Positions 8,222 to 24,000 of a DNA stretch of 64,000 nucleotides are shown here, piece by piece. The notes beneath the pieces were generated by a model that was not told where the DNA came from, ran no database searches, and saw only the letters and a program-made list of their open reading frames with translations. Where the stretch lies: assembly GCA_905250025.1 (NCBI GenBank), contig CAJNOJ010000020.1, forward strand, positions 620,001 to 684,000, read 5' to 3'. Both the position numbers and the translations under genes were made by a program. The stretch comes from Adineta ricciae. Its lineage: Eukaryota > Rotifera > Eurotatoria > Adinetida > Adinetidae. Positions within the stretch are counted from its first letter, which is position 1; every line of letters starts with the position of its first letter.

Positions 8222-9463
8222 ATACGTAAAAAAGACTCTTAGGCTTTTTCACTCAGCACGACGAAAAGAAATTTCCTAATCGATTCGATTCATTGCCACT
8301 AGCTCCATTTAAAAGGAAATTTGTTTTTATTACTCATCCGAGCACTTAGCTTTCTATGACATGTTTGGTAAAAAGTACATTTCACCATAGCTTGATAAAA
8401 AACAGCATCTCTCAATGATGTTCGTTTACTTGACAGTCAAGTAATATGCGTCGTCATACACAGACTTTCCCTCTATTCATTGTGCACAATACACTCCGTC
8501 ATTCATGATCCATTAATATATCTTTTTCTTTTCTACAAGTTTTTACCTTGAAAAGTTGTTTTTTGTTCGTAGTATTCCTGTGTTTGTCCCTTATGATGAT
8601 TGAATATTCATTTATAACGCTATTCCTATGACTCATAACGTTAAGCAACATTGAGTAATCATACCAGGCGTTTTTGAGCTGCAGAAATAAAGAAAATGTC
8701 ACGGTTGTTTACCTTGAAACACTGGGATTCGATCGCATCCTGCAGTGAGGTAACTAGTTACGTGGGTTTTGATTTGGGTTTATACGATCTGATTACCAGG
8801 CCTCCTTATATGAAGAAAAGTTTTCATATGCTTTTTTTTTCTTTTATTTTTCTTGCCTCACGAAGCGAAACTAACCTGAAAAAGTTAAAAAGCAACCAAT
8901 GAGAAAAATACCTGTTTTCAATAGTAACTGGCAAGCGTATGTCAATCTTCCCTTTAGTGTGATACTTCTCACAAAAATTTCTTCTAAAAACTTAATTATC
9001 TAAAGAATAAAAGTTTTTAAGAAAAGGTAGCTTCTGTTCTTTATAAAATATTCTCCTGAATGTTATCATCACGTTCAAAAACGCGTGTGTGTTAAGCGTT
9101 GCTATCTTTTTAAAATTCAATTCTTGTAATGTATCCATTGCAATGAGTATTTCAAGTCGTTAACGCAATCATGAAAATAAGCAAAACAGGAGATATGTTT
9201 TGTGTTGACATGTACTATAAGAGCTGACTCTTTCGAAAAGATGTCAAATGAAAAATGATTAACGACAAGAATGACGAGAGAAAACATAAAATTGTGTTTA
9301 CATACCTCAGGTGAAAAAATATCAAATAGAATTTTATGTTAATTTCTTGCACTGACACCAACCGGTTTATTTGAATACTTAAATGAAAGTCATAATGGAA
9401 TAGCAGCAAGTTGAGCTTCCCTTATTGACATCACAATTCTTTGTAACGAAGGATATTGGAGAA
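8216..9463. other. divergent intergenic region
   Basis: Lies between the minus-strand reductase and a plus-strand gene, so it should hold both promoters. Short ORFs here (for example 8499-8702 and 8696-8902) look like chance; they have no recognisable domain and AT-driven composition. Confidence 0.45.
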
Positions 9464-10495
9464 ATGTTCACAAGTCCAGTTAGTCAATGGTCGAAAGCCG
9501 AATATTTTCGCACGCTCTCCAGTCTTCGTTCCGCGCGCTTCTCTGCACCGCATGCTCAGATTCCCAGCTGCTCTAATCTGACATCTCCTTCAATTTCCGC
9601 TAATAAAAATGTCATCACAGAGACAAATCATTCTTCATTACATCCATCGCTGGAGAAATCGTATGATGCAGCAATACGCTCAACTGATGGCGATAATAAA
9701 CAAAAGCTGACCTTGGAAATCTGGTTGCCCAACACACAGCCTCACAAAGACGATGAAAATGTTCATCAAACAACAACAACGAAAGTTGATGTTGTCGAAA
9801 CTCTACCAATTCTCACTAATCCTGTACAGTCGACACCACTGGTTGCATCGCATCAGGAACGAACTAGTTGTTATCCAACAATATCATCATATTACAATGA
9901 AGAGACTCATACTTTCAAGATTGTAGAAAAATTGATGCCTTCAAACCCTTCTCCAGTCGTTACACCGAGCTTGAACAATTCAAAACCGATTAGTTCTTTT
10001 CTACGAAAATACTCTTCGAAGAGAAAGGCTGATCCTCCTCCCATGATGAGTATATATCTGCAAATTATTACTTGAAGTCGAGAGAATGCATGTCTACTCC
10101 TTTTCTTAGATATTTCAAAACAAATTCAATTACCAATCCTGCCTGACAAAGCGCCAATACACGTTTCGCGACCATCATCAGTGATTCGTCAAGCGAACAC
10201 AAGCACAACATTTCTTGCACGCTGTCCCTCATCTATTAACTCATCTCACACGGATCTTCAGCCTCAACTACGTGTATTTTCTCTGACAAATCAACAACCT
10301 TCATCTATTTTCCTAACGAGTCTGTCTAACAAAAAAACTAATGAAACATTTCACCCACTAAGACGTAGTCGAACGTTTGAAACACTCTTCGATTACACCA
10401 CCTCTGTTCGCGTACCATCATTTAATGAAACCTTGGAGCCAATCCTTTCTCTTACATCGAAACGAATGTCGTTTACCTTTCGTGCGAAACAATAA
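9464..10495 (+). CDS. uncharacterised Ser/Thr/Pro-rich protein
   Basis: Not recognised. Two exons (about 9464-10049 and 10110-10495) join in phase over a 60-bp intron into about 323 residues. It is rich in Ser, Thr, Pro and Asn with basic clusters (FLRKYSSKRKADPPP, LRRSRTFETLF), and has no signal peptide, membrane span or clear fold, so it looks largely disordered and suited to phosphorylation. The first in-frame ATG after the upstream stop at 9401 gives the start at 9464. It converges on the securin-like gene 255 bp away. A regulatory or cytoskeletal adaptor role is possible but only a guess. Confidence 0.65.
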
Positions 10496-10750: not shown

Positions 10751-11448
10751 CTAATTGAGAATATCGATCATATCGAGTAAAGTTGGTACATCAACAAGAG
10801 TACACACAGGTGATTGACAGCGAATTGTATTCTCCAAACCACCATAATAAGAAAACATATTCACACCATTCGTTTGTTTCATAATCATATGTTCAATACG
10901 TTCGTCCATTGGAATAAGATCATCAAATGTATCTTGATTTGAATGATTCACATGTGGAAGATCATCTTCCGGATGAGAAGGTGCCGTTTTCGAGATTGGC
11001 TCTTCTTGTTTAGTATTCACATTCTTTAGTGCATTCATTCGGGTGAAATCATCACTTGAGACAACGCGAGATATATGATTACTATTGTGATTGACTAAAC
11101 CTAAAGCGCGACGACGTTGAGTTGAAACAGGTGTATCAAATTTGCTCTTATTAAAACGAATTGGTGTCGTTGTGGATTCTGAACACATTTGTAGATCATT
11201 CATACTTGTTGCATTAACAAATTTCAAGTGTTTATTGGGATTATTATTGGAATAAGAGGCTAAGTCGTTCAATGTTGCCGAGGATAACATACCATTACGT
11301 ACTGAAAGTTAATTCGTTTGATTTGATTTACTAACTTCTTTCCGAGATGTGACTTACTTGGTGTTCGTAATGGATTACGAAGTGGTGTTTTGAATAAAGA
11401 AAAATCGCAACCATTCTCTTTTGTTCTTGCCGCTGCTGTCGTCGTCAT
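10751..11448 (-). CDS. securin-like protein with KEN box and D box
   Basis: Two exons (11448-11358 and 11301-10751) join in phase into 213 residues, near the 202 of human securin (PTTG1). Residues 10-12 are KEN (TKENG), and residues 94-101 are RRALGLVN, a full RxxLxxxN destruction box closely matching the vertebrate securin box RKALGTVN. A run of Ser/Thr-Pro sites (TPLR, TPIR, TPVS) separates them, the middle is acidic (DTFDDLIPMDE), and the tail is hydrophobic/acidic (LVDVPTLLDMIDILN). Family knowledge: securin inhibits separase until the anaphase-promoting complex reads its KEN and D boxes. Securins diverge so fast that short motifs, layout and length are the usual evidence. The alternative is another APC/C substrate with the same degrons. 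Confidence 0.6.
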
Positions 11449-21059: not shown

Positions 21060-24000
21060 TTAAAGGATCTCTTCACTTGAATCCATCGGTTGAATATCTT
21101 GAAGTGAACTTTGAGATTGCATTTGACTATTATCATCTTCAGTTACTGACGAAGCGATGTCTTCCATGCCTAGCAGAAGATCTTCATCTTTCGAATAGAG
21201 TTTATCGGCATTTTCTTTCAACTGATTGTTAGCACCTAGGAAAAATAAACAGGACTATCGTATGAAACTGGTCGATGACAGACAACTTTGTTTTACCTTT
21301 AGGGTCAAGATCCATACTCCATGACATGTACATATATGAGTAATGGAAGTTCTTCAAATGTCGATGAACCTGAACGAATTAGCATGAATGAAAACCTTTT
21401 GAATCAAAACTTCGCTTACTTTACTAAGTAAATAGTAAACAAGTGACTCTTTCGGCGCAATTTGCCGCAATTCTTCAAGTTCACTCAATGCTTCGTGATA
21501 CCGCTCGAGGTGTAATAGAAGGCCAGCTCTAAAAAACAAAAAAAATCCTCGAATAAATCATTCTTTCCTAGAAAGTATTTTACTCACTTGTGAAATTTAC
21601 ACAGCGCATTTTTCGAATCAATTTTCAATGCATCATTCAATAATGCTAGTGCATCAGCGGATTGATTACATTTATGTTGTGCCTAAACGAATGTTTCTCA
21701 TCAGAGAAAATATACGAAACAAATAAAAAGTATTCTTACCACTGCTAAATGACAAATTAGATCTGGATTGGTACGATATATACTCGTAGCTTTCGTGAAA
21801 TGAAATGCAGCTGATTGAAATTTTTCTTGTTTCAAATAAATCATCGCTACACCATTCCTATTCGAACAGAAGCAACAATTGACCAACAAAATCATGTCAG
21901 TAGACTCACCAAGCTTTGTAACTGCGTGGATTCAATTGTATAGCTTTGCGAAAGCATGCCATTGCTCGCTCAAGTTCATCAATGAGAGAATATTCATTGC
22001 CTAACAGTGTGTATGCATAATCAGATTCAGGTGCTAGTTGAATGGCACGTTTAAATGCTTGAATTGCTTTATCATATTCATGATTCAAACTTAGACAATT
22101 GCCCGACGCACACCAACTCTAAAGTTAGGAAAACGAAACGTCACAGATATCCTATCACAGATTTCCTGAGAGTGACTTACAGCTGGATGCTTTCGATCAG
22201 TTTCAGTTAATTCGTGTGCTAACGTTGCTAGAGCAATATCGTCTTTCAAATGCCATAGGACAGTACTATAATATTCTAGTCCATCGATGTGATATGGATA
22301 CTTTGTACGCAATTCTCGATAGATCAAAGAAGATTTCTGATAATCATGTAAATGATAATAGCAATTGGCTAATCGTAATAGAGCCCAGGGTGTATTAAGA
22401 TGCTTTAGAGATATCGACTCGAATAATTCAATTGCCTGTCGACATTCAAATTGGGATAAGTATTGAAGGCCTTGGCCAAGGAGTTTAAACACGTTGATTA
22501 TATTTTCGATAATTTCTGCAAAAGATAAAAACGAAACGATCAATATTTTCAATTGATGACTAAGGAAAAACGAACCAGATATGCGTGGAGTTGATTGTGA
22601 TTTCTTTTGTCGCTCACGTTTATTACTAATATCTGTTTCCATCGAGGAATTCAAACTGGTATTACTTGACCGAACTTGCGATCGTGTTGTCATTTTATTT
22701 GGAGACTCGGACGATGATATAGGAGTGATACTCATATCAGCACAGGGTGGACGCGGCTTTGTGATGCGTGTCGTACGTTTCGTTGGAGCACGAATGGATT
22801 TGTTCTCCTTCAATTCCAGAACAATCGTTCGAGCATATCAAATTTGAGCGAACAACAACCTACCTTTCGTGTACTCGCTGTTTTCTTCGCCTCACTAATG
22901 GAAGTCGATGCCATATCATGCTTATGTATAAGCGTAGCTGTTGAGATAGGTGTACTCGTATCATCAAATCCATACTGTTGCCTAGAAAAACAAACAAACT
23001 GATAGTTATTCAAACTGATGTTCATGATGAATTCATACAGCATTCGCGTATTTTGTCGTTTGGGTGCTAAGGGTGGATTACGTAATGTGGGAATATTATC
23101 AGGTGGCTTGATAGTGGGTGGAGTGTATTTATCACCATCTTGCAGTTGTTCAGAAAGTAAGCCAATAGGCGTTGATGTAATACTTGCTGAAATGTTCGCT
23201 GAATCAACATTTAAAATCGAATCTGTTAATTTCATAACATATGCCGGTGCTGGGAATAGACGTTGTTGAGGTCGTTCTTTGATAGGAAGACTAGTACTTG
23301 TATTTATCGACTAAAACAAGAAGAAAGATCAACGATTGTTTCAGATGAATTTCAAATCGAAACGAACATTTTCTATAGTTTGATTTTCACTTTGGATATC
23401 TTTTATAGACTCTGCATAGGGAGTGATACATATGGGTGATTCTGATATAGATCGAGCGGATTTGATCGTAGATGAGCAGAATATACTTGTATCAACACGT
23501 TCGCCTAGAAAAAAAAAGTGAAAATTAAACCTGTGTTTTGAATAAACAAACATTTGTTACCTAATCGACAGAGAGCTTCGAAGGACGACCAGAGAAATGG
23601 ATTGATTTTCAATGATTTCCGATAGCATTCACTCGCCTTTTGATGACGATCTGATTTTCTACAATTAATTCAATGAAATATTCAAATCTATCCATCAATC
23701 GTTGACTTACTCGCAAATTTTAGCTAGTAATTGTAATGCAAATGCTGCTTGATCTCCATGATCAGTGGTAAAATCATCAAGTACAACTGTACTAATTGAC
23801 GAACAATTTCCCAGTAGCACTGATTCTGCTTCATGCAATCTTCGAAAGCGACAACGAGCGTTTTGTTATTTCGTCGTTTTCGAAAATTCTCTCAACTTAC
23901 TTGTCTATATCAAAACAACATTTTGCTAAAAGAAGTTTAGCAGTGGGTACATGTTCAATCGATGAATGTCGCAATAACCAATAAGATTTGTTAATATCAC

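Follow-up and report, generated by a model that had tools for sequence, protein, structure and literature searches.

A candidate securin gene in the bdelloid rotifer Adineta ricciae

Known securins and the rotifer candidate

Securin restrains chromosome separation until it is itself destroyed. Because securins change rapidly, searches by homology tend to overlook them. In passages of PMC10317155 and PMC6858450, securin is described as lying antiparallel on separase with a large hydrophobic residue in place of the substrate's P1 Arg, separase substrates as following (S/D/E)xExxR, and the key motifs of human securin as EIEKFFP at 113 and LPE at 130; according to a passage of PMC6858450, LPE is kept in vertebrates and some lower eukaryotes and reads VPE in budding yeast. 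Part of PMC10003635 states that vertebrate securins have "no sequence homology to Cut2 or Pds1", and a passage of PMC7943633 records that PANS1 was shown to be the Arabidopsis securin. We take yeast Pds1 and Cut2 and plant PATRONUS as precedents for securins recognised by behaviour and not by homology. A Daphnia meiosis study omitted securin as poorly conserved (in a passage of PMC2680839), and searches of an open-access library turned up no report of a rotifer securin.

The window analysed here is a 64,000-nucleotide stretch of an A. ricciae contig. Judging from its sequence, the protein under study is probably a genuine securin, a member of the known kind. It shares with human securin (PTTG1, PF04856) an N-terminal KEN box, a similar length (213 residues here, 202 in human), a D box (RRALGLVN here, RKALGTVN in human) with a common TP-RF-K-FD-P flank, an ExxPhiP motif after the D box, an acidic C-terminal third, and an acidic/hydrophobic tail. 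It differs in that KEN and D box lie 32 residues further apart and in being without a Pfam match, a literal LPE, an NxLxPhiE motif, or an acidic P6 residue, and the likeness of the tails is weak. The Pfam mismatch is not defining, because yeast and plant securins have been accepted on function.

A two-exon gene in four copies

The two-exon, 213-residue gene model of the first-pass annotation proved exact, with two open frames on the minus strand joining across a 56-base intron. The parts of the gene, in window positions, are as follows.

11358..11448, minus strand: exon 1 (91 bases, ATG at 11448-11446), encoding residues 1-30 plus base 1 of codon 31
11302..11357, minus strand: phase-1 intron of 56 bases, GTAAGT...TTTCAG, across which the open frames are joined
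10751..11301, minus strand: exon 2, from the remainder of codon 31 through residue 213, with the stop codon TAG (10753-10751)

A protein search of the 130.46-Mb assembly (1033 contigs) yielded four copies of the gene, on contigs C20 (the window), C69, C61, and C152; the seventh match of that search lay on C21 with an E value of 0.17. The C69 copy is 98% identical to the window copy overall and is presumed to be its allele, and the copies on C61 and C152 encode 206 residues and are 53% identical to the window copy. Two near-identical pairs, mutually diverged, are the pattern of copies expected in a bdelloid rotifer. A telomere-type repeat, TGTGGG, taken as a possible bdelloid mark, gave 38 matches on 10 contigs, but its reversed control is identical to the repeat in a shifted phase, and these matches carry no weight. 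Exon 1 was recovered on C69, C61, and C152 as well, and all four copies carry the intron in phase 1 after a Pro codon, with lengths of 56, 56, 52, and 58 bases. By the Nei-Gojobori method, dN/dS was 0.06 and 0.12 within the near-identical pairs and 0.26 to 0.31 across them, where dS (1.2 to 1.4) is near saturation. These low ratios indicate constraint at the protein level and mark the candidate as a real gene on which purifying selection acts.

When the window protein was compared with one diverged copy (L003), 104 of its 213 residues were identical (48.8%, counting gaps as differences). Taking blocks whose boundaries were picked after the alignment had been viewed, identities amounted to 3/3 in the KEN box, 7/9 at residues 14-22, 19/26 at residues 76-101, 6/6 at residues 142-147 (EDDLPH), 12/17 at residues 154-170, and 17/22 at residues 187-208, against 40/130 outside all blocks. 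KEN box, D box, and C-terminal core are kept in all four copies, and the retention of both degrons together with the C-terminal core in the diverged copies is as expected of a securin. With the 53% copies standing in for orthologues, the KEN box, D box, and tail, whose conservation the first-pass annotation had proposed as a check, are indeed among the conserved parts. Each diverged copy is followed by a 139-residue frame (L003 2285-2702, L004 2277-2694), which by eye may be MSS4/RABIF-like (a Rab factor).

Degrons and the D-box flank

The N-terminal half carries the following degron features, both boxes being present exactly where they had been annotated.

11413..11421, minus strand: KEN box, residues 10-12, with R-x-KEN invariant in the four copies
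11090..11113, minus strand: D box RRALGLVN, residues 94-101, found in the sequence and by a genome pattern search
11114..11167, minus strand: D-box flank, residues 76-93, TPIRFNKSKFDTPVSTQR, with two TP sites and a resemblance to human TP-RFGK-TFDAPPALPKA

The D box is invariant across the four copies except at its sixth position. The arrangement that characterises securin degrons, a D box, usually with a KEN box, N-terminal of the separase-binding part, is found here at the level of sequence. Length and degron order (KEN, then D box; 213 versus 202 residues) fit a securin as annotated, whereas the spacing, said to be similar to that of vertebrates, is 81 residues here versus 49 in human securin. 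The annotated acidic middle is likewise not borne out: the middle third carries a net positive charge (11 K/R versus 7 D/E), and it is the last third that is acidic, with 3 K/R and 12 D/E.

We gauged the degrons against chance in two ways. Among 200,000 composition-matched shuffles, KEN appeared in 7,993 and RxxLxxxN in 20,230, RxxLxxxN downstream of a KEN in residues 1-20 in 79, and RxALGx[VI]N in 2. The window and 200 kb of the same genome gave 292 stop-to-stop frames of 100 residues or more, of which 22, including exon 2 of the candidate, had RxxLxxxN and 7 had KEN; the single frame with both is another one, the candidate's KEN sitting in its other exon. The degron pair is thus weak evidence genome-wide, so that the weight falls on the exact form of the D box and its flank, and degrons alone are unable to identify a securin. 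The whole genome was searched, allowing zero mismatches, with a 24-base pattern for R-[K/R/H/Q/N/S]-A-[L/F]-G-x-[V/I/M]-N, whose first codon also admits Ser and which is blind to intron-split sites. Six matches were obtained, four of them the candidate's copies and the other two with Phe for Leu; the reversed control gave two. This pattern detected no other securin-type D box with Leu in a single exon, and to that extent no second securin came to light; one whose D box differs would escape it.

Two complete degrons might also serve as decoys in an APC/C pseudosubstrate inhibitor of the Emi1 or Acm1 kind, a reading to which the full consensus quality and the conservation of both boxes lend something. 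Such inhibitors feature a zinc-binding region and a C-terminal Leu-Arg tail. Both are absent by eye and no Pfam model reached cut-off for the window protein or L003, and we regard this identity as very improbable.

Similarity to human securin centers on the D-box region

Chain 7nj1_B (202 residues) served as the human securin sequence. The full-length end-free alignment scored 26.0, a value reached by 1 of 1200 shuffles, by 14 of 1200 when KEN and D box were held fixed, and by 174 of 1200 when KEN and human residues 41-68 were fixed. When a profile was built from the four rotifer proteins, human securin scored 5.3 bits, a value reached by 3 of 5000 shuffles. The score was -2.2 bits with the degrons masked (1830 of 5000), -2.7 bits for the human C-terminal half alone (2963 of 5000), and -1.3 bits for reversed human securin; in these counts 3262 of the 5000 shuffles were given a score and the remainder were taken as lower. 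By segment, with boundaries likewise picked once the alignment was known, the stretch from the TP sites to the D box was matched by none of 500 shuffles, glocal or local, and the flank without the D box (residues 71-93 versus human 41-60) by 2/500 glocal and 1/500 local. The segment from pseudosubstrate to LPE was no better than chance (278/500 and 262/500), and the tail bore a weak likeness to the human tail (4/500 glocal, 31/500 local). BLASTP gave an E value of 0.020 in a single comparison, and hhalign an E value of 0.035 with a probability of 1.5% over residues 79-104. The signal lies mainly in TP-x-RF-x-K-x-FD-x-P...RRALG-x-VN and is weak elsewhere. Taken together, these comparisons support homology to human securin at the D-box region and do no more than suggest it elsewhere.

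The likeness is specific when set against two controls. Against human securin, z was 4.7 glocal and 6.2 local, with 0/500 local shuffles reaching the score, versus -1.3 and -0.7 for sororin and -1.0 and -0.7 for the cyclin B1 N terminus. When the 1135 frames of 60 residues or more from the window and 200 kb of genome (264 kb) were ranked by similarity to human securin, the exon-2 frame came first with a score of 57; an unrelated frame of 370 residues scored 56.

The sororin control also bears on another identity. Sororin (CDCA5), a cohesin protector with a KEN box, is marked by an FGF motif that binds Pds5 and by a C-terminal sororin domain. Set beside an unverified human sororin sequence, the candidate has KEN and then an LFKTP segment, of which KEN and LFKT are common to both, but neither the window protein nor L003 contains an FGF motif, the score of the alignment to that sequence was reached by 486/500 glocal and 386/500 local shuffles, and no sororin model was among the Pfam matches of the two proteins. 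A rotifer sororin is therefore a reading to which we give hardly any credence.

The Pfam scan of the window protein returned 0 families, and Pfam Securin (PF04856) matched neither it nor L003, although the human control scored 202 bits. L003 had sub-cut-off matches to K1377 (E value 0.0054, 15.4 bits versus a cut-off of 27), Peroxin-22 (0.1), and Drc1-Sld2 (0.12), which were set aside as chance or compositional because the window copy shows none. A clear match to a different family, which would have spoken against the annotation, was thus not seen at cut-off for either protein. In the PDB, neither the window protein nor a profile of rotifer sequences alone retrieved a securin, and all chains returned were unrelated; a rotifer profile that included human securin did find human securin in the PDB, which is circular. 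Genome searches with Pfam Securin and human securin gave no match, and their controls were silent too, so that they carry no weight. A peptide-pattern scan of prokaryote genomes returned 68 matching stretches and 0 relatives.

The main alternative to a securin is a short APC/C substrate, a regulator of the cell cycle or cohesion, that carries degrons without binding separase and whose D box is convergent. The concentration of significant similarity at the D box and immediately N-terminal to it is what such a protein would show, since D-box flanks may converge on meeting the same receptor, and an ExxPhiP motif arises by chance in about 11% of cases. However, the flank exceeds shuffles even without the D box itself, and degron order, length, and the acidic C-terminal third match securin. 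The C-terminal blocks are moreover conserved between the diverged copies, indicating that the protein's role exceeds being degraded. We consider this alternative unlikely, and the securin interpretation of the first-pass annotation is the one we retain: it has gained from the copies and from the specificity of the D-box likeness, and has been weakened by the missing Pfam match and by a similarity largely confined to the D-box region.

A putative pseudosubstrate and the C-terminal half

The C-terminal half carries three segments of note.

10955..10969, minus strand: EDDLP, residues 142-146, the proposed separase pseudosubstrate, invariant in the four copies
10883..10933, minus strand: block DTFDDLIPMDERIEHMI, residues 154-170, aligned with human ESFD..LPEEHQIAHL (the LPE exosite segment)
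10754..10834, minus strand: acidic/hydrophobic C-terminal tail, residues 187-213, conserved, ENTIR-x-QSP...VDV-x-TLLDM

EDDLP was chosen because three unguided alignments (MAFFT, local, and BLASTP) place it on human E115-K-F-F118-P119; the segment statistics give no support to the choice. In this assignment P4 is Glu142, P1 is Leu145 in place of Arg, and P1' is Pro146 as in human, and Leu145 would be the blocking P1 residue. Both the window protein and L003 have EDDLP as their sole ExxPhiP, and such a motif occurred within residues 102-213 in 5723 of 50000 shuffles. P6 is His140 (Tyr in the diverged copies), so the Asp or Glu (or Ser) that the pseudosubstrate rule calls for at this position is missing. 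Neither protein contains an ExxR cleavage site. Two other segments were set aside by eye, TFDDLIP for its Asp or Asn at P4 and RIEHMI for having no Pro after it.

In the same alignments Phe156 falls on human Phe128, which a passage of PMC8280194 describes as one of two phenylalanines without which mouse oocytes do not destroy securin early. Neither the window protein nor L003 contains a literal LPE or NxLxPhiE, the human LPE position being occupied by IPM in the window copy and MPT in the diverged copies; this is not disqualifying, because LPE is not universal in securins. As for the hydrophobic/acidic tail that had been annotated as securin-like, its conservation holds (17/22 at residues 187-208) but its likeness to the human tail is weak.

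Separase and a proposed model of control

The genome contains a separase gene on contig C156, with Peptidase_C50 matches of 2.1e-19 and 1.1e-13. Its locus carries YMGHGSGSQ, LMGCSSARL, and TDRDID, and the exon that encodes its active site matches separases of known structure (best E value 6.4e-7; human 3.3e-4). A query with the C-terminal part of separase retrieved the C156 locus and a weak place on C55 (E value 0.055, 32%). Further C50-like matches, at two similar places on contigs C50 and C33, were below cut-off; they may represent a cilia protein that contains a domain like that of separase. One clear separase locus was thus located in the assembly, versus four copies of the securin candidate, a difference that may reflect collapse, loss, or divergence.

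In the scheme that we infer for the candidate's disorder, separase binding, exact pseudosubstrate, and degradation, the protein, probably disordered, would bind separase through its C-terminal half, where EDDLP, with Leu145 at the position at which substrates carry Arg, would act as a non-cleavable pseudosubstrate blocking the active site. At the metaphase-anaphase transition, APC/C would recognise the N-terminal D box RRALGLVN and the KEN box, and the candidate would be ubiquitinated and destroyed, leaving separase free to cut cohesin.

Bdelloids are thought to reproduce without ordinary meiosis, and the candidate bears on how chromosome separation is controlled in them. A rotifer securin and its diverged copy would reveal which parts are fixed, namely the KEN box, a D box extended by a flank with TP sites, the ExxPhiP motif, and the tail, and these offer a handle for seeking securins in other spiralians. 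It is conceivable, though we hold it only tentatively, that this rotifer branch, invisible to Pfam, has two diverged securins (53% identical, dS above 1, each a near-identical pair) acting on one clear separase locus and possibly dividing the work, for example between oogenesis and embryonic mitosis where there is no conventional meiosis. Whether two securins hold separase in one animal is now a directly testable question.

Genomic surroundings

The Rfam scan of the window found no RNA family. On the plus strand, two consecutive Ser/Thr-rich frames (9404-10495) leave 256 bases between their end and the stop codon of the candidate and are perhaps one convergent gene; the first of them had no match in a Pfam scan. 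Upstream of the candidate and on the same minus strand lies a SKP1 gene (12659-11779), whose Skp1_POZ and Skp1 domains are encoded by different exons. An exon of CDC27/APC3, an APC/C subunit (22091-22837, minus strand; E value 6.9e-22 to human CDC27), is situated about 10.6 kb away, and its presence near a candidate APC/C substrate is probably a coincidence.
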